Virus record (IMG/VR): IMGVR_UViG_3300025141_000918
Span: 1-21,468 of that record
Length of the DNA: 21,468 bases
Strand: one strand, 5' to 3'
From: a virus
The notes under the pieces are model-generated. The model was not told the origin of the DNA and made no database searches. It saw only the letters and a list, made by a program, of their open reading frames with translations. Shown here piece after piece: positions 1,513 through 8,293 of this stretch. Each line of letters starts with the position of its first letter. The stretch's first letter is position 1. The position numbers were made by a program, and so were the translations under genes.

Positions 1513-1965
1513 ATGAATTTAAAGTATAAAAAATCAAAATTAGTAGAGAGTATGGGGTACGATATCGTACTCCCAACTTCCTACGGTAGTAAACCTCAAA
1601 GTATTAAATTAACTGAATCACAATTTAAGAGATTAGTCGAATCGTATATGGATGATGAAGATGAAACAATAGCCGAAATAAGCGAAACTTTTGGAGACGG
1701 TGATATTGGTGGCTTAACTGGTCATGATACGGACGCTAATCTAGATGGTCCTGAAGATTTCAATACCACTTCAGGATATGATTTACCTGAAGATGCAATA
1801 TTGGATGAGTTATCCGATGAAGAGGAAATTTTAGAAACTTCAAGAGATAGTGAAGGAGAATATAGAGGAACTCCAAGTCAAGTAGAAAAACGAGACACTT
1901 ATGATGGAAGACCTGGTAAGGTTGTGGGAGTTTATTCTAATATTAAAAAACAAAGAGAACAATAA
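1513..1965 (+). CDS. Small acidic protein of unknown function, downstream of sheath
   Basis: 150 residues, not recognised as a characterised family. The first ~45 residues are basic/amphipathic and contain two similar motifs, KLVES (residues 9-13) and IKLTESQFKRLVES (31-44). The rest is strongly acidic (DDEDE, DELSDEEE) with Gly and Thr-rich stretches, apparently disordered, and the C-terminus turns basic. The LTESQ...RLVE motif contains L-x-E sites of the kind T4 prohead proteases cut, so a head-associated or scaffold-like protein is possible, but this is speculation. The ATG at 1513 is supported by AAGGAAG just upstream. It follows the sheath gene by 20 bases and is the last gene before the terminator at 2001-2024. 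Confidence 0.75.
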   Translation: MNLKYKKSKLVESMGYDIVLPTSYGSKPQSIKLTESQFKRLVESYMDDEDETIAEISETFGDGDIGGLTGHDTDANLDGPEDFNTTSGYDLPEDAILDELSDEEEILETSRDSEGEYRGTPSQVEKRDTYDGRPGKVVGVYSNIKKQREQ

Positions 1966-2000: not shown

Positions 2001-2024
2001 AAAACCCACTCTGTGGGTTTTTTT
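2001..2024 (+). terminator. Rho-independent terminator after the sheath operon
   Basis: A perfect 9-bp stem, AAAACCCAC (2001-2009) with GTGGGTTTT (2013-2021), closes a 3-base TCT loop and runs into T-rich sequence (TTTTTTT at 2018-2024). It separates the sheath/1513 unit from the accessory island. Confidence 0.88.
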
Positions 2025-2041: not shown

Positions 2042-2049
2042 TATCTTTG
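2042..2049 (+). promoter_or_regulatory. Possible Bacteroidota-type -7 promoter element (TATCTTTG)
   Basis: TATCTTTG matches the Bacteroidota primary-sigma -7 consensus TAnnTTTG and lies 25 bases before the ATG at 2074, just after a terminator. A TTTG at 2026-2029 could be the upstream element, but the 12-base gap is shorter than the usual ~19-20, so only the -7 part fits well. It suggests that this gene is read by host polymerase, separately from the TATTTATA-box late genes. Confidence 0.35.
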
Positions 2050-2073
2050 GTATTCAACTAATTAAAATAATTT

Positions 2074-2517
2074 ATGAAATTAGCATTATTCGATTTTGAT
2101 GACACCTTATTTAAGACTCCTTATCAGGAAGATTGGTCTTATATGGATACTCCTTCCAGTTTAAATCCTAGAAAATGGAAATTTGACCCAAAAGAAAATG
2201 TTATTAAAGATTACAAAAAAGAATATCACGACAGAAAAAGTATAGTTATTCTTTTAACTAATCGTATTAGTGATGTCTTCTCAGATTTAAAAACTTTATT
2301 GGATTCACGTTTCGTATTTTTTGACGAATACCTACCCATCCAAGGGAAAAACGGTAACAGGTCCAAAGGTCAAAGAGTTTTACAATTATTGAAAAAATAT
2401 CCACAGGTAGAAGAAATAGAATATTGGGAAGATAAAGATAAACACATTGTAGATGTGTTAAATGCATTAGAAGATTTTCCGGATATTAAAGTTAAAATTA
2501 ATAAGATACCTACTTAA
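2074..2517 (+). CDS. HAD-superfamily phosphatase, resembling the Swiss-Army-Knife RNA-repair HAD type
   Basis: 147-residue single-domain HAD hydrolase. Visible motifs are motif I DFDDT (D7 nucleophile, D9 acid/base), motif II T62 in LLTNR, a probable motif III Lys near K98, and motif IV WEDKDKH (D120/D122). LFDFDDTLFKTP near the N-terminus followed by a Trp-containing region, together with the late ED..KH motif, resembles the HAD domain of fungal RNA-repair (HAD_SAK) proteins and the phosphatase half of polynucleotide kinase-phosphatases. The likely activity is removal of a phosphate from a nucleic-acid 3' end or a small substrate; the substrate cannot be read from sequence. It ends 8 bases inside the convergent kinase gene. 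The island position with a kinase and another HAD phosphatase supports an end-healing role. Confidence 0.82.
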   Translation: MKLALFDFDDTLFKTPYQEDWSYMDTPSSLNPRKWKFDPKENVIKDYKKEYHDRKSIVILLTNRISDVFSDLKTLLDSRFVFFDEYLPIQGKNGNRSKGQRVLQLLKKYPQVEEIEYWEDKDKHIVDVLNALEDFPDIKVKINKIPT

Positions 2518-3163
2518 GTTGATGTATCCTGCCCAACGGTCTTTCACTAGGAGCTAAATCCTGAGTGTTATCGATTACCCAATAATTATCTACATAAGGT
2601 ACTAAATTCCCAACGGCATTCTTAACTTTATCATGATAATCTACAACCATTTCTGCTGGTAAACTCCTGTCTCTTTCGAGATTACGTTCCAATGCTTTTT
2701 CTATATCGGTTACAACATGAACAATACTAACTATAAATCCATTTTCTTCCGCTGTTTTTATAATCTCCTTCATAACTTCTTCCTGTCCACCTCCAGCATC
2801 ATATACTAGGTTAGTGGGTTGACTTCGTTCTGTTTCTAAAAAGTTCTTTAAATGTTTTATAGTTAAATTTCTGGGGTCAGATGTAGTATGTGTCATATCT
2901 ATAATGGTTTTGTAACCTTCTTCTGTTGAAATCATTTCTTTCCAATCATCTCCCCATAATTTTTTTGCCATCCCTATTCTATAATTGTCTACATTAAAGG
3001 GTTTAACATTATCTAAATCTATAAAATGTTGACTCACGTAACTTTTACCCGCACCGGGTCCACCAGCTAAGATTACAAAATTTCCATTAGGTTGGTTAAA
3101 GGTAACCATTTTGGATTCCATTAACATTAAATTTTTCATTCTATTTATTTGTTCTACTAACAT
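2510..3163 (-). CDS. P-loop kinase, zeta-toxin/polynucleotide-kinase-like
   Basis: 217 residues on the minus strand. Walker A is GGPGAGKS (residues 34-41), preceded by a hydrophobic strand (FVILA). Other features are D59 in VDNYR after the first helix, a LVYDAGG strand (119-125), and an Arg/Glu-rich lid-like segment ERNLERDRSLP (159-169). This layout fits the P-loop kinase group that includes zeta toxins and polynucleotide kinases: transfer of a phosphate from ATP to a nucleotide, nucleic-acid 5' end or sugar. The first ~20 residues precede the fold and look like an added leader (NRMKNLMLMES, with an L-x-E site at 14-16). It is convergent with the HAD gene at 2074 (8-base overlap) and divergent from the HAD gene at 3207. 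A single-gene toxin is less likely in a phage structural region. Confidence 0.8.
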   Translation of the reverse strand: MLVEQINRMKNLMLMESKMVTFNQPNGNFVILAGGPGAGKSYVSQHFIDLDNVKPFNVDNYRIGMAKKLWGDDWKEMISTEEGYKTIIDMTHTTSDPRNLTIKHLKNFLETERSQPTNLVYDAGGGQEEVMKEIIKTAEENGFIVSIVHVVTDIEKALERNLERDRSLPAEMVVDYHDKVKNAVGNLVPYVDNYWVIDNTQDLAPSERPLGRIHQLK

Positions 3164-3169
3164 ACCTAC

Positions 3170-3187
3170 TAATAAATATATTTATTA
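3170..3187. promoter_or_regulatory. 18-bp perfect palindrome, candidate shared divergent promoter
   Basis: TAATAAATATATTTATTA is its own reverse complement and presents TATTTATT in both directions. It lies between the divergent starts of the kinase (ATG at 3163, minus) and the second HAD phosphatase (ATG at 3207, plus). Similar boxes precede other late genes, so one palindrome could drive both. A repressor-binding site is an alternative. Confidence 0.45.
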
Positions 3188-3206
3188 TGTAGAACTATAA
3201 TTGTTT

Positions 3207-3854
3207 ATGAAAAATTTAATAAAACAAATTCTTAAGGAATATGCAAAAACTAATAGGTTAATCCTCTTAGATGTGGATGACACCCTTTTAAAACCCACTG
3301 GGGTGTACATCTATAGAAATTTGCCGAGCGACGCAGAGGAGGTAGCATTGACCCCCTACGAGTATGGTTTGGAAGACGTAACACCCGAGAATAAACAATA
3401 CTATGATTATAGGGATTTTATGAATCCCGAGAAAACTAGACAGTCTATTTCCCAAGCTGAACCTATAGTAGCAAACTTATCTGTAATGGATGATTTTATT
3501 AAACGGGGTCACCAAATTGGAATACTAACCGCCCGTTCCAATGAGGACATTGTATACCAAGGATTAAAAGATTGGTTAATGTATAAAGATAAAAGTGGGG
3601 AATTAATTCCATTAGGGGACAGGTTAGAACGACAAAATATATTTGCCGTTAACGACACTAAAAGAATAGAGGAGTTAGAAGCAGAAACGGACTATGAAAA
3701 AAAGGCAGAAGTGGTGGAGAGATTACTACATCAGTATGATGAGATTGTGTTCATAGATGACGATTTAAAGAATATAAAACAAATGATGATACTTAAACGA
3801 GATTTACCCAAAGAATTAAGTAAAAAGTTATTTGTAATGCATGCTAAAGAATAA
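3207..3854 (+). CDS. HAD-superfamily phosphatase with N-terminal leader-like segment
   Basis: 215 residues from the ATG at 3207; a TTG two codons upstream is less likely. HAD motifs are clear: motif I LDVDDTLL (D22, D24), motif II ILTARS (T108), a probable motif III Lys at 165/166, and motif IV FIDDD (D184-D186). The segment between motifs I and II (about 80 residues) is a moderately large cap-like insertion. The first ~14 residues (MKNLIKQILKEYAK) form a basic amphipathic helix ahead of the HAD strand, with L-x-E at residues 9-11. It is divergent from the P-loop kinase, with which it probably shares the palindromic promoter. The substrate is unknown; nucleic-acid 3'-phosphatase is a reasonable guess from the neighbours. 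A paralogue-like HAD gene lies at 2074, but the sequences are too different for a recent duplication. Confidence 0.82.
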   Translation: MKNLIKQILKEYAKTNRLILLDVDDTLLKPTGVYIYRNLPSDAEEVALTPYEYGLEDVTPENKQYYDYRDFMNPEKTRQSISQAEPIVANLSVMDDFIKRGHQIGILTARSNEDIVYQGLKDWLMYKDKSGELIPLGDRLERQNIFAVNDTKRIEELEAETDYEKKAEVVERLLHQYDEIVFIDDDLKNIKQMMILKRDLPKELSKKLFVMHAKE

Positions 3855-3862
3855 GCTTTTAC

Positions 3863-3870
3863 TATTTATA
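3863..3870 (+). promoter_or_regulatory. TATTTATA box in the gap before the tail tube gene
   Basis: Exact TATTTATA, 130 bases before the tube ATG in the 145-base gap at 3855-3999. The gap also has a second box at 3959 and an AT-rich inverted repeat at 3941-3955. No gene is visible in it; the ATG at 3879 opens only nine codons. Confidence 0.3.
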
Positions 3871-3958
3871 TTAATAAATGAATAGCTTTATGCTTTGCAT
3901 ATTATAATTTTAAAATATTAAAGTAAAGGGTTTTATTCTCGGTTTTTGAAAAACCATA

Positions 3959-3966
3959 TATTTATT
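3959..3966 (+). promoter_or_regulatory. TATTTATT box upstream of the tail tube gene
   Basis: The sequence around 3955-3968 (CATATATTTATTAA) is close to the leaders at 20266 and 3176 and lies 41 bases before the tube ATG. It is a candidate promoter for the highly expressed tube gene, which is closed by its own terminator. Confidence 0.4.
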
Positions 3967-3999
3967 AAGAAATAACAATAGAAAAACAAAAATATTACC

Positions 4000-4488
4000 A
4001 TGGCTGATTTATTAATGAAAATGCCCATACCTTATGAACCTAAAAAGAAAAATAGGTTTATACTTAGATTTCCTTCTTCATTAGGGATTAACGAGTGGTA
4101 TGTGGAAACAACTTCTAGACCTCAGGTCACAGTTAATTCCGTAGAAATTCCATTTTTAAATACTTCTACTTATGTTGCAGGAAGATTTGTTTGGAACACT
4201 ATAAATGTAACATTCAGAGACCCAATCGGTCCTTCAGCTGCACAAGCATTGATGGAGTGGGTGAGATTACATGCCGAGTCCGTTACTGGAAGAATGGGAT
4301 ACGCTGCAGGATACAAAAAAGATATTGATTTAGAAATGTTAGACCCTACAGGTGTTGTAGTTGAAAAATGGATTTTACAAGGAACATTTTTAACAGATGT
4401 TAACTTTGATAGTTTAGGATATAGTGATGATGCAATTGCAACTATATCAGCTACTCTACGACCTGACAGATGTATTCTAGTATACTAA
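4000..4488 (+). CDS. Tail tube protein, T4 gp19-like
   Basis: Major subunit of the inner tail tube through which DNA passes. The 162-residue length is almost that of T4 gp19 (163). The pattern fits: N-terminal PYEPKKKNRFILRFPSSLGINEWYVETTSRP, where a first strand leads into a W-containing loop, then VEIPFLNTSTYVAGRFVW.TINVTFRDP, and a C-terminal Gly/Asp-rich strand ending in ATLRPDRCI. The tube usually follows the sheath directly in T4-like phages; here about 2.5 kb of accessory genes separate them. It has its own leader boxes and is followed by a terminator, so it can be transcribed alone, as expected for a protein needed in many copies. Confidence 0.93.
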   Translation: MADLLMKMPIPYEPKKKNRFILRFPSSLGINEWYVETTSRPQVTVNSVEIPFLNTSTYVAGRFVWNTINVTFRDPIGPSAAQALMEWVRLHAESVTGRMGYAAGYKKDIDLEMLDPTGVVVEKWILQGTFLTDVNFDSLGYSDDAIATISATLRPDRCILVY

Positions 4489-4510: not shown

Positions 4511-5155
4511 TTAATAAGCCCATGTTTCATACGTGGGTTTTTTATTTAAGGGTGCTACGTTTTTTATTTTGGGGTAAGAACATTTTTTCCATAGACATTT
4601 TAAGGTTTTATCATAAATGAAAAGATACCTATGTTTTTGGGGTCTATTTCTCCATTCCCCTTTAAATCCCTTTACAGGTCCACGTTGATGTTTTTTAAAG
4701 GTTCCATCGTTATTTTCAAACCAAAAATCCTTCTTTTTATCAGTTAAACCATAATACCCAAAATTGGTGGCTTGATAGATGTAACCTTGATGAAATGAAG
4801 AATCCGCATAAGAAAGTAGAGCCCGTACTTTTATTTCTTTTTTTAAAAATTTAATACATTTAGACACAAACCATGATAATATATTTTTTTCAGTTAGGGT
4901 GGGTAAAATACACAACCTACCTAATTCAAAAATACCTTCTTGCTCGTTTCTTTTCAAATTAAAACAACCTTTAACAGTCTCAGGTACCGAAGGAGAATGA
5001 AATATACAAACCCCAACCAATTTATTACACTTAAACAACCCAAAATTATAACCAGACCTAAACCCCTTATTGATTTTAGATAAATAATGGTGTTCCTGAA
5101 GTATAGACTTACATTCCTTTTTAGTTATTCTTTGTATATTAAAATTTTTAATCAT
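4511..5155 (-). CDS. Mom-like DNA modification protein (GNAT-related)
   Basis: 214 residues from the ATG at 5155. The frame is open to a TTG at 5215, but the ATG at 5155 starts just before the conserved region and is preferred. It resembles phage Mu Mom, which modifies adenines in phage DNA and so blocks many restriction enzymes. Visible family-like segments are HHYLSK (residues 22-27), a GFRSGYNFGLF...LVGVCIFHSP strand pair, ELGRLCI, a helix with NILSWFVSK, and SYADSSFHQGYIYQATNFGYYG, the strongest signature. The C-terminus is basic (KKHQRGPVKGFKGEWRNRP), suitable for DNA contact. It is encoded opposite to the tail genes between tube and hub-assembly genes. Its last codons overlap the tube terminator. 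A GNAT-like enzyme with another target is the alternative. Confidence 0.77.
   Translation of the reverse strand: MIKNFNIQRITKKECKSILQEHHYLSKINKGFRSGYNFGLFKCNKLVGVCIFHSPSVPETVKGCFNLKRNEQEGIFELGRLCILPTLTEKNILSWFVSKCIKFLKKEIKVRALLSYADSSFHQGYIYQATNFGYYGLTDKKKDFWFENNDGTFKKHQRGPVKGFKGEWRNRPQKHRYLFIYDKTLKCLWKKCSYPKIKNVAPLNKKPTYETWAY
4516..4543 (+). terminator. Terminator after tail tube gene, overlapping the end of the Mom-like gene
   Basis: A 9-bp stem with two G-T pairs, AAGCCCATG (4516-4524) with CGTGGGTTT (4532-4540), has a 7-base loop and is followed by TTT and then ATTT. It is oriented to stop transcription from the tube gene. The stem also encodes the last codons of the minus-strand gene, so the two convergent units share it. 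Confidence 0.8.
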
Positions 5156-5184
5156 AGTGTACTTATATAAAACATTGACTTCTT

Positions 5185-5215
5185 CTAATATAAAATTAAA
5201 TTTAAAGAAAAACAA
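5185..5215 (-). promoter_or_regulatory. Possible Bacteroidota-type promoter for the Mom-like gene
   Basis: Read on the minus strand, TTG (5213-5215), a 20-base AT-rich spacer and TATATTAG (5185-5192) fit the Bacteroidota TTG...TAnnTTTG layout with one mismatch in the -7 element. The start codon is 30 bases downstream at 5155. AT-rich sequence makes chance matches easy. Confidence 0.28.
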
Positions 5216-5221
5216 GCATTA

Positions 5222-5986
5222 ATGGACCCAAGACAATATTCTGATATTGCACAAGCTAATATTCCTTACGACATCGTTCCTTTACCTTCACAAGGTATGT
5301 TCTACCCAAGTAAGGTAAATGAATTGAAAGTTGCCTATTTGACTGCCTCTGACGAAAATCTTTTAAGTTCCCCAAACCTAATCGAATCTGGAAATTTAAT
5401 AGAAGAGTTATTACGTAGAAAAATCTTAGGAACGGAGATTTTAGTTAGTGACATGTTGGAATGTGATAAACAAGCTATTTTAATATTTTTAAGAAACACG
5501 TCTTATGGTCCCATATATGAGTTTAATTTAAAAGACCCAGCCAATGGTAATTCTTTTAAATATAGTCATGATTTAAGTAAAGTGAGCATGAGGGACTTTA
5601 CTTTAATTCCAGATGAAAAAGATGAGTTTGAATTCACTTTACCCCAAACAAACAAACCACTTAAATTTAAATTTTTAACATCCCAAGCTGAAACAGAATT
5701 AGAAAAGTTAAAAGAAGCTTATTCTACAAATGGACAAGTAGCTCCAATTGTAACTCGTCGATTAGAATTATTAATACAAGAAATAGAGGGTGAAAGAGAC
5801 AAAGAAAAACTTTCACAGATTATACAAACAATGCCTATTCGAGACTCACAGGAGTTTAAAAAATTCGTTAGGAATAATCAGCCGGGACTTGAGTTATCAA
5901 TTACGGTAAAAGCGCCATCAGGAGAAGATATCACTACAGCAGTGGTGTTTGGCGCCCACTTTTTTCGTCCTTTCTTCGGAGTATAG
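5222..5986 (+). CDS. Baseplate hub assembly protein, T4 gp26-like (T4_baseplate family)
   Basis: 254 residues. The opening NIPYDIVPLPSQGMFYPSK, then an ELKVAYLTASDENLL segment, a helix with LIEELLRRKI, and DMLECDKQAILIFLRNTSYG, fit the family of T4 gp26-related proteins found in many myoviruses upstream of gp51-like proteins and the tape measure. These act in hub and tape-measure assembly, in the genomic position of the G/GT chaperones of other tailed phages. The central part is a strand-rich region (YEFNLKDP...), and residues ~155-215 are helical and charged. The C-terminus (VVFGAHFFRPFFGV) overlaps the start of the next frame by about 38 bases. The start is the ATG at 5222, with an A-rich leader (AAAGAAAAACAAGC) and no strong Shine-Dalgarno. 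Confidence 0.78.
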   Translation: MDPRQYSDIAQANIPYDIVPLPSQGMFYPSKVNELKVAYLTASDENLLSSPNLIESGNLIEELLRRKILGTEILVSDMLECDKQAILIFLRNTSYGPIYEFNLKDPANGNSFKYSHDLSKVSMRDFTLIPDEKDEFEFTLPQTNKPLKFKFLTSQAETELEKLKEAYSTNGQVAPIVTRRLELLIQEIEGERDKEKLSQIIQTMPIRDSQEFKKFVRNNQPGLELSITVKAPSGEDITTAVVFGAHFFRPFFGV

Positions 5987-6158
5987 GCAAACTGTGCTCG
6001 ATGAAATCTACTATCTAACAAAATTCGCTAATTTTTCCCATCACGACATCCTGAGAATGCCTATCTATGAAAGACGATATTACGTAGGCAAACTAACGGA
6101 GGAGTTGGAGAAAAAAAGAGAAGCCATAGACCAATCAAAAAACCAATCTAGACTCTAG
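5949..6158 (+). CDS. gp51-like hub assembly protein, possibly made by frameshift from the upstream gene
   Basis: About 70 residues in the +1 frame relative to the gp26-like gene. The core is LDEIYYLTKFANFSHHDILRMPIYERRYYVGKLTEE, followed by a charged helix, a pattern I associate with gp51-like small tail-assembly proteins. The frame is open from 5910 but has no ATG before 6057, which lies inside the conserved core. Possible starts are TTG at 5949 or GTG at 5994 (GGAG at 5978-5981 would be its ribosome site), or the protein is the tail of a frameshifted fusion of about 311 residues. In T4, genes 26 and 51 are adjacent in this order. The coding call is secure from the conserved motif; the start and mode of expression are not. 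Confidence 0.72.
   Translation: MAPTFFVLSSEYRQTVLDEIYYLTKFANFSHHDILRMPIYERRYYVGKLTEELEKKREAIDQSKNQSRL
5957..5968 (+). other. Candidate +1 (or -2) translational frameshift site
   Basis: In the gp26-like frame the codons read CAC TTT TTT CGT. A Phe-tRNA on the second TTT (5963-5965) can move forward one base to TTC (5964-5966) and continue GTC CTT TCT into the gp51-like frame. A six-T run also allows a two-base backward slip. The zero-frame stop is six codons further (5984-5986). Paired assembly proteins made by frameshift are well known upstream of tape measure genes in other tailed phages. A sequencing error is the alternative. Confidence 0.4.
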
Positions 6159-6174
6159 AAAATTCATCCCCATC

Positions 6175-6182
6175 TATTTATA
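6175..6182 (+). promoter_or_regulatory. TATTTATA box upstream of the tape measure gene
   Basis: CTATTTATAGTAAAA, 25 bases before the ATG at 6200, shares the extended ATTTATAGTAAAA stretch with the leader at 20271-20283. It lies in the 41-base gap after the gp51-like gene. It is a candidate late promoter for the tape measure and the long genes after it. Confidence 0.48.
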
Positions 6183-6199
6183 GTAAAACAGAGTAAAAA

Positions 6200-8293
6200 A
6201 TGGCAAAAGGCGGAAAAGTTAATTACGGCTCCTGGGACCAAGCTAAAGATAGCGGTTGGGGTGGCAAAGAAATTGTTTGGGACAACATGACCCGAGCTCA
6301 GCAGAAAGATGTTTTAACAAAAGGTGCCACCAACATGTCTAATAAAGGAGTTGCCAATGTAGCTGAGAATGTAACCGGAGAAGGGAAGGGTGTCCAAAAG
6401 TTACAAGGACTAATTGCTGAATGGGAAAAACTACAACAGTTAACCCAATCCGTGGGTGCTGGTACTGCAGGAGGGCAATTTACGGGTATGGCATTAGACC
6501 TGTTAGAAGAGGAAGCTACCATTAGAAGAGGTATAGTAAAAGACCTCGGACAAACAGGACTTCTACAACAACGTACCACCAAAGAAATTTTTAAAGCTTC
6601 CGTAGCAACTTCCCAATATGGCATTTTACAAGAAGATTTATTGGCAACACTGACCAGTATTAGTGATGTGGTAGGGAGAAACATTGCTTTTACAGATGAT
6701 GAAATAGAACGGTTAGCCGTATTCCAGAAAGCTTTTGACCTTAGCGGTGACCAAGTAGGGAGAATGGTAAAACAATTTGACCAAATGGGATTCACTATTG
6801 AGACTTCCATCGATAAGGCAAATGAAATGGCGGATGTGGCACGAATGATGGGTGTTAACATGGAAGGATTCATGGACAACATGACCCAAAATATGGACAT
6901 GTTGAATACCTACAATTTTGCAGATGGGGTAAAAGGATTTGCAAAAATGGCCGCACAATCAGAACGATTAGGGATTAGTATGGGCACCACTGCAAAATTA
7001 GCAGAACAAGTAATGGACCCAGAAGGAGCTATAGAATTGGCCGCCAATTTACAAGTTATAGGTGGAGCAGTAGGAGATTTAGCCGACCCATTTAAATTAA
7101 TGTATATGGCCACCAACGACTTGGGAGGTTTACAAGACGCGTTAGTAGACGCAGGAAAATCACTTACTTATTTTAATGAAGAAACAGGAGAAATTAGTTT
7201 CCCACCAACGGCACAACGACAATTAAGAGCAATGGCTGATGCCTTGGGTATGAGTAAAGAAGAATTTGCGGGCATGATTAAAATGCAAGCAAAATTTGAA
7301 GCCGCATCTAATCAGATGAATTTATCTTCATTTGTTGGTAAAGATGCTGATGAAATGAAAGAGTTTGTTGCGAGTATGGCCAAAATGGGGGAGAAAGGAA
7401 TTTATCAGATAGAGTTGGAAGACAAGACAGGAAAGAAAGAAATGGTGAATCTTTCTGATTTGACTAAAGACCAAGTAGATGTATTAAGAAAAATAAGAGA
7501 GCAACAAGAAATGACCGAAAAAGATGTTGCTTTAGAACAACTGAGTTTATTGGATGCCATTAAAAACAATACTGCAGTAATGCCCAAACAGGCTCTTAAA
7601 GCTGGCCTTATAGAGAAATTAGATGTGGGTGCAGTTCAAATGACTTTAACTGAAGGGGTGAATGCGGCTATTGATGGTGAAAGTGTAAAAGCGATAGGTG
7701 ACGCGATGGGAGAACAGATGAGAAAAGGGGTTGAATTGATGACTGGTAGGGACTATGATGAGGTAAAGGAAGGTGTAAAAAAAGGTACAAATGTAGGTCA
7801 AGCCGGAGTCAAAGCAGGATTACAAACAATAAGTGAACTTATTACCACCTCAACTAATACCACAGTTAATGCACAATCCGTGGCAGTATATGGAAATATA
7901 GAGGCAAAACCAGAGAAGGATTTTATGATGGCAGCGGATGGAAAACCTAAATTAATTCTAGGGGGTCCCGAAGGGGCTATTATAAGTGCCGCTGACGATA
8001 ACATTATGGGTTATAAAGGTGGTGGTGGTGCATTAGGGAGTGCAGCGGGGGCAACCGCTGGAGGTGGTGGACAACAAACCATTGCACTTAAATTAGAAGG
8101 AATGTCTAGTCTACCTGTGACCTTAAAGGGAGTGGGTGAATTTGCTAATGTTAATATAATAGACAAATTATTGAATGGCCCAAATAGGGAATTATTTTTA
8201 CAAAATTTAAAACACGCTATAGAGCAAACTAATCCAACAGGAACACAATCCTATGTTCAATTACAAGATGCTGGTGGTGTGTATGACAAATGA
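6200..8293 (+). CDS. Tail tape measure protein
   Basis: 697 residues, predominantly helical, Gly/Ala/Met-rich, without Cys. It fits a tape measure: it occupies the tube lumen during assembly, sets tail length and leaves with the DNA. Supporting points are its position directly after the gp26/gp51-like pair, long amphipathic helices (residues ~65-130, 150-330), a degenerate MADVARMMGVNMEGF...MAAQSERLGISMG helical region, and a Gly-rich flexible segment at ~606-625 before a compact C-terminal domain. The usual rule of thumb of ~0.15 nm per residue gives a tail near 100 nm, similar to T4, whose gp29 is 590 residues. Minus-strand ORFs here are frame shadows. The N-terminus (MAKGGKVNYGSWDQAKD) is Gly/Lys-rich. 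No lytic or peptidase motif was noticed. Confidence 0.82.
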   Translation: MAKGGKVNYGSWDQAKDSGWGGKEIVWDNMTRAQQKDVLTKGATNMSNKGVANVAENVTGEGKGVQKLQGLIAEWEKLQQLTQSVGAGTAGGQFTGMALDLLEEEATIRRGIVKDLGQTGLLQQRTTKEIFKASVATSQYGILQEDLLATLTSISDVVGRNIAFTDDEIERLAVFQKAFDLSGDQVGRMVKQFDQMGFTIETSIDKANEMADVARMMGVNMEGFMDNMTQNMDMLNTYNFADGVKGFAKMAAQSERLGISMGTTAKLAEQVMDPEGAIELAANLQVIGGAVGDLADPFKLMYMATNDLGGLQDALVDAGKSLTYFNEETGEISFPPTAQRQLRAMADALGMSKEEFAGMIKMQAKFEAASNQMNLSSFVGKDADEMKEFVASMAKMGEKGIYQIELEDKTGKKEMVNLSDLTKDQVDVLRKIREQQEMTEKDVALEQLSLLDAIKNNTAVMPKQALKAGLIEKLDVGAVQMTLTEGVNAAIDGESVKAIGDAMGEQMRKGVELMTGRDYDEVKEGVKKGTNVGQAGVKAGLQTISELITTSTNTTVNAQSVAVYGNIEAKPEKDFMMAADGKPKLILGGPEGAIISAADDNIMGYKGGGGALGSAAGATAGGGGQQTIALKLEGMSSLPVTLKGVGEFANVNIIDKLLNGPNRELFLQNLKHAIEQTNPTGTQSYVQLQDAGGVYDK

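Follow-up and report, generated by a model that had tools for sequence, protein, structure and literature searches.

A gene for a P-loop kinase flanked by genes for two HAD phosphatases lies in the tail region of a T4-like bacteriophage, and an earlier note on this DNA read the three as a polynucleotide end-healing system resembling T4 Pnkp but split among separate proteins. This raises the question of which of the three belong together, what they would act on and when in the infection they would be present. The window (the whole stretch of DNA analysed) is a 21,468-base virus record, a fragment with sheath, tube, hub and baseplate genes, and its features around the locus are as follows.

1513-1965, plus strand: variable gene with an internal IKLTESQFKRLVES motif
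2001-2021, plus strand: terminator-like hairpin (9-pair stem, then a T tract) closing the upstream structural gene, just 5' of HAD1
2043-2050, plus strand: TATCTTTG box, some 24 bp 5' of HAD1, a -7 element of the Bacteroidota promoter type
2074-2517, plus strand: HAD1, 147 aa, stand-alone HAD_SAK_1 phosphatase with a probable Pnkp-type 3'-phosphatase fold, lacking an N-terminal tag
2510-2517, no strand: tail-to-tail overlap of the stop regions of HAD1 and the kinase gene, 8 bp
2510-3163, minus strand: kinase, 217 aa, P-loop kinase of the Pnkp/PSTK/zeta group
3116-3163, minus strand: N-terminal tag of the kinase, MLVEQINRMKNLMLME, ending in a gp21-like L-x-E
3170-3187, no strand: palindromic element TAATAAATATATTTATTA between the kinase gene and HAD2, carrying the late-type TATTTAT element in both directions
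3207-3854, plus strand: HAD2 (ATG at 3207; TTG at 3201), DUF2608-type HAD with the N-terminal tag MKNLIKQILKE
4511-5215, minus strand: Mom-like DNA-modification gene (PF25680, 2.5e-30; PHROG 1384)

Organisation and conservation of the locus

The motifs and layout described in the earlier note were found intact. HAD1 and the kinase gene converge on their 8-bp overlap, and the kinase gene and HAD2 diverge across a gap of 43 bp, so that the locus, with its convergent pair and a neighbour running away from the kinase gene, does not form an operon. The catalytic residues were invariant among relatives in HAD1 (D7/D9/T11, R64, K98 and E119/D120), in the kinase (GGPGAGKS, D59, R62, D122 and R160/N161/R164/R166) and in HAD2 (D22/D24/T26, R110, K165/K166 and D184/D185/D186). 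Given that the three ORFs remained open in about 30 contigs with protein identities of 40-90%, they must be considered genes and not chance reading frames.

The proposal of a single three-gene cassette stood for two of its members. In the approximately 30 related contigs, HAD1 and the kinase co-occurred in every complete stretch, always in convergent orientation, and the identical 8-bp overlap was present in 10 of the 12 loci measured, including a relocated pair in contig L055. The HAD2 locus occurred without both HAD1 and the kinase in six contigs, while in a 297-kb contig the pair lay at 15 kb and HAD2 at 154 kb; HAD2 thus keeps beside the tail-tube gene rather than with the pair. Since HAD1 and the kinase are lost or relocated as a unit and HAD2 stays with the tube gene, they constitute a true pair with an independent neighbour. 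The two were separate genes in every relative examined, and no single-polypeptide Pnkp was seen.

Homologues of the kinase family, PHROG 5268, were found in about 200 phage records. In the genome collection there were no bacterial relatives of HAD1 and only one of the kinase, in a Rhodobacteraceae bin, where it probably lies in a phage stretch. The HAD1 relative in LR745208 is a SAK domain inside a 508-aa protein, and no kinase was recognised among its neighbouring ORFs, as judged by reading them. In the outgroup phage L121 (G011), a HAD2-like domain is found within a 1013-aa protein. Regarding the surrounding genes, the Mom-like gene lies between the tube and hub genes, oriented against the tail genes, and is kept in many relatives and absent from others. 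In relatives, several unrelated proteins have the IKLTESQFKRLVES motif close to their N-terminus.

Families and folds of the phosphatases and the kinase

HAD1 matched HAD_SAK_1 (PF10307) with 32.8 bits, above the gathering cut-off of 25.6, and all 20 HAD1 homologues matched this family. PNK3P was matched weakly by 12 of the 20 (E-value ≤0.05), the HAD1 of the window remaining below the curated cut-off. The best PDB matches of the HAD1 structure model (pLDDT 96) were to Pnkp1 of Capnocytophaga gingivalis (1e-5), the phosphatase of T4 Pnkp ranking seventh (7.6e-4), and its viral matches were SAK proteins together with many Pnkp proteins. These matches support the suggested likeness of the first HAD to RNA-repair HADs. 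In contrast, DUF2608 was matched by all 22 HAD2 homologues and no PDB match to HAD2 was found by sequence. On its synteny and family, HAD2 was rejected as a third component of the system; our best guess is that it is a separate HAD of the tail locus, likewise tagged.

The kinase matched the Pfam families AAA_33, 6PF2K and Zeta_toxin, the last with 30.0 bits against a cut-off of 22.3; Zeta_toxin was also matched by all 19 homologues. Its PHROG matches were 5268, to which no function is assigned, and 505, polynucleotide kinase; its profile matches were L-seryl-tRNA kinase (2.8e-8), the Clostridium thermocellum Pnkp, CthPnkp (5.5e-4), and Pnkp1 (0.026). The model, of moderate confidence (pLDDT 79), had as its best PDB match the CthPnkp kinase domain (6.6e-8), closely followed by PezT, zeta and PFKFB. 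Thus, best matches to Pnkp-type structures were obtained for HAD1 and the kinase, but zeta toxins come almost as near to the kinase as Pnkp does, and it may act on a zeta-like substrate. D35 and R38 of T4 Pnkp align with D59 and R62 of the kinase, and the D-x-x-R acceptor motif and the R-N lid were invariant in the 19 homologues, as expected of a Pnkp-type kinase. No antitoxin gene was recognised beside the kinase, the neighbours being the two HADs and structural genes. With respect to the split of Pnkp over three proteins envisaged earlier, the families and folds support it for HAD1 and the kinase and not for HAD2.

The pair resembles T4 Pnkp (PseT) in both folds, in the kinase P-loop and D35/R38 equivalents and in the DxDxT of the phosphatase, but it is encoded by two convergent genes and only the kinase of the pair carries a probable capsid tag. 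The best solved-structure matches of HAD1 and of the kinase belong, respectively, to the bacterial Pnkp1-Rnl-Hen1 system and to CthPnkp, which, unlike the split pair, are fused multidomain repair enzymes that act together with a ligase and Hen1; moreover, the CthPnkp phosphatase is a metallophosphoesterase, unlike HAD1. The stand-alone Swiss-army-knife (SAK) HADs of jumbo phages belong to the Pfam family of HAD1 and, in a survey of these phages, were assigned to RNA repair as proposed 3'-phosphatases (PMC7824862). Unlike them, HAD1 is tied to one kinase, and the usual ATP-grasp RNA ligase was not found in seven large pair-carrying relatives.

N-terminal tags and promoter-like elements

The earlier note mentions neither the N-terminal tags of the locus nor the differences between its promoter elements. 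The kinase begins with about 16 variable residues that end in (L/F/M)-x-E, E16 being invariant in 19 of 19 sequences. In the related contig L010, nine genes of the sheath-tube interval were compared irrespective of whether they bore the tag; they had a mean N-terminal likeness of 13.75 versus 6.24 in random sets (1500 sets from a 245-kb relative, sd 1.20, maximum 10.67), while their internal stretches were not alike (5.4). The sharing was strongest among the kinase, a superoxide dismutase and two ORFs that matched no Pfam family, so that unrelated proteins have an N-terminal tag ending in (L/I)-x-E in common; HAD1 did not share it in this test. A second tag form, recognised by pattern, is common to DeoC and the kinase of the window type. 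The genes between the kinase and HAD2 in L010 encode the superoxide dismutase (5570-6232), the DeoC aldolase (6289-7092) and an uncharacterised protein (7095-7976), and it is possible that the genes inserted here, each with a capsid-targeting-like N-terminus, represent a cargo island. In contig L050, an M23/SLT/peptidoglycan-binding protein (2877-4316, minus strand) bears the first tag form, MKTLIKKILRE, and belongs to a series of genes with tags.

In T4, capsid-targeting sequences comprise some ten residues and are cut by gp21 (PMC9026906). Kinase homologues of other T4-like phages begin with T4-type tags (MKSFKDFVSLDE, MKTFAELQE and MKKFSEFIKLEE), and a homologue of the prohead protease gp21 (PF03420) was found in five relatives, including G001. 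In the Rhodobacteraceae bin contig (L146:6457-9145), the genes beside the kinase homologue start with MKSFKDHMTE, MLSFQQYLDE, MKTFKQLKEE and MKSFKKFAEA, all of which resemble T4-type tags. The simple L-x-E pattern was only weakly enriched at N-termini genome-wide (12 versus 7, sd 2.5), and the tag claim consequently rests on the island test and the kinase homologues. What is new here is an L-x-E tag on the kinase and HAD2, common to unrelated nearby enzymes and resembling the T4 capsid-targeting sequences. As in the capsid-targeted internal proteins of T4 (IPI-III and Alt), unrelated proteins share a short tag at the N-terminus with a gp21-type L-x-E at its end, in phages whose relatives have a gp21 homologue; the difference is that the predicted cargo would be a kinase and a HAD and that the tag sequence is another one (MKNLIKQILKE or MLVEQINRMKNLMLME). 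Given the shared tag, the T4-type tags of the homologues and the gp21 homologue, the kinase seems to be packaged in the virion, and such packaging is predicted to be likely. No published virion proteomics of kinase-bearing phages was found, and the text of a study on a Klebsiella phage of another genus does not mention a kinase.

The sequence TAnnTTTG, the consensus named for Bacteroidetes promoters (PMC10309648), lay ahead of HAD1 in 19 of the 20 loci versus 3 of 38 upstream regions of kinase or HAD2 genes, counts that are not independent because the loci are related by descent. From this box, the host of the phage is probably a member of the Bacteroidota. Kinase and HAD2 genes with an upstream region of their own mostly carried TATTTAT there, and in the 245-kb relative this element was enriched upstream of genes, including tail, head and gp21-homologue genes. 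The T4 late promoter TATAAATA was considered and rejected, given that TATAAAT, unlike TATTTAT, was not enriched upstream of genes in that relative. A sigma-70 scan gave no more matches than in shuffled sequences.

Proposed function and alternative explanations

We tentatively propose, as a reading that may well prove wrong in its substrate, packaging, cleavage, timing or function, that HAD1 and the kinase are a split end-healing pair of which the kinase is delivered by the virion and the phosphatase is made early. The kinase would be produced late, enter the prohead through its N-terminal tag, be cleaved after L-x-E by a gp21-type protease and be injected with the DNA; the untagged HAD1 would be expressed early from the host-type promoter. 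With an injected kinase and an early HAD1, the infected cell would contain both partners from the outset. The kinase would then phosphorylate 5'-OH ends and HAD1 would strip 3'-phosphates, so that nucleic acid cut by a host nuclease, most likely tRNA, would be made ligatable by the pair.

The sealing ligase would apparently not be a phage-encoded member of the known RNA-ligase families. The following results count against a repair pathway like that of T4. A phage RNA ligase elsewhere in the genome was sought in three families (PF09511, PF09414 and RtcB), with T4 as a positive control that matched PF09511 and PF09414, and none was found in seven large pair-carrying relatives, some of whose records are fragments; this also sets the pair apart from T4 RNA repair, which has the ligase RnlA. 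The same relatives have 0-2 tRNAs. Jumbo-phage kinases and phosphatases usually accompany RNA ligases (PMC7824862). The outgroup L121, which does not carry the pair, has 40 tRNAs, an RNA ligase and an NAD DNA ligase.

A less probable reading, though still to be taken seriously, would make the kinase one of zeta-toxin type or one acting on small molecules, injected to alter host metabolism at entry, and the neighbouring HAD a nucleotidase or sugar phosphatase, with no end healing involved. The Zeta_toxin match of the kinase and all its homologues and the position of PezT, zeta and PFKFB among its best fold matches are consistent with this, and the kinase homologues of T4-like phages match mainly Zeta_toxin. 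In Pseudotevenvirus and Melnitz, the gene after the kinase homologue encodes an untagged NT5C-type HAD, annotated in some T4-like phages as 5'-3' deoxyribonucleotidase; in two Aeromonas phages the gene at this position is not of this type. In the nearest other kinase-HAD pairs the partner is an HAD of the NT5C type, which suggests nucleotides and counts against end healing. Nevertheless, HAD1 groups with SAK and Pnkp phosphatases and not with nucleotidases, and the kinase, which shares the P-loop fold and Pfam match of zeta toxin and PezT, differs from them in having no recognisable adjoining antitoxin gene and in its Pnkp-like lid; its R-N-x-x-R lid and D-x-x-R motif, which follow Pnkp and PSTK, argue against such a kinase.

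DNA and RNA alike are substrates of Pnkp-type enzymes. It is conceivable, but unlikely, that the pair heals 5'-OH/3'-phosphate nicks that host nucleases leave in the phage genome as it enters the cell, to be sealed by a DNA ligase. This would agree with the probable co-injection of the kinase with the DNA, the scarcity of tRNAs and lack of an RNA ligase in pair carriers, and the ATP-dependent DNA ligase found in three of the seven pair-carrying genomes; on the other side, neither DNA ligase family searched was found in the remaining four, including G001, and the SAK HAD family has been proposed to act on RNA (PMC7824862). Finally, that three unrelated accessory genes met by chance in a sheath-tube cargo island without joint function is very unlikely: the superoxide dismutase, DeoC and uncharacterised genes of the island, the clear independence of HAD2 and the non-operon orientations fit this, but HAD1 and the kinase are never apart in complete stretches, are lost or relocated jointly and retain their overlap.

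The proposed split end-healing pair might also have counterparts. It is possible, although doubtful at present, that several T4-like lineages combine a capsid-loaded, injected P-loop kinase with an unpackaged HAD phosphatase made in the infected cell, the partner being of the SAK type in the clade of the window and of the NT5C type in others, as a general virion-delivered strategy of counter-defence or end repair. RNA repair by phage T4 is known as the work of an enzyme made after infection. If the proposal is true, the virion-delivered half would let end healing start ahead of all phage protein synthesis, a point of importance against defences acting within minutes. From sequence alone, the tag would offer a route to predict the capsid cargo of T4-like jumbo phages whose hosts are of the Bacteroidota type, and PHROG 5268, the family of the kinase, would become testable.
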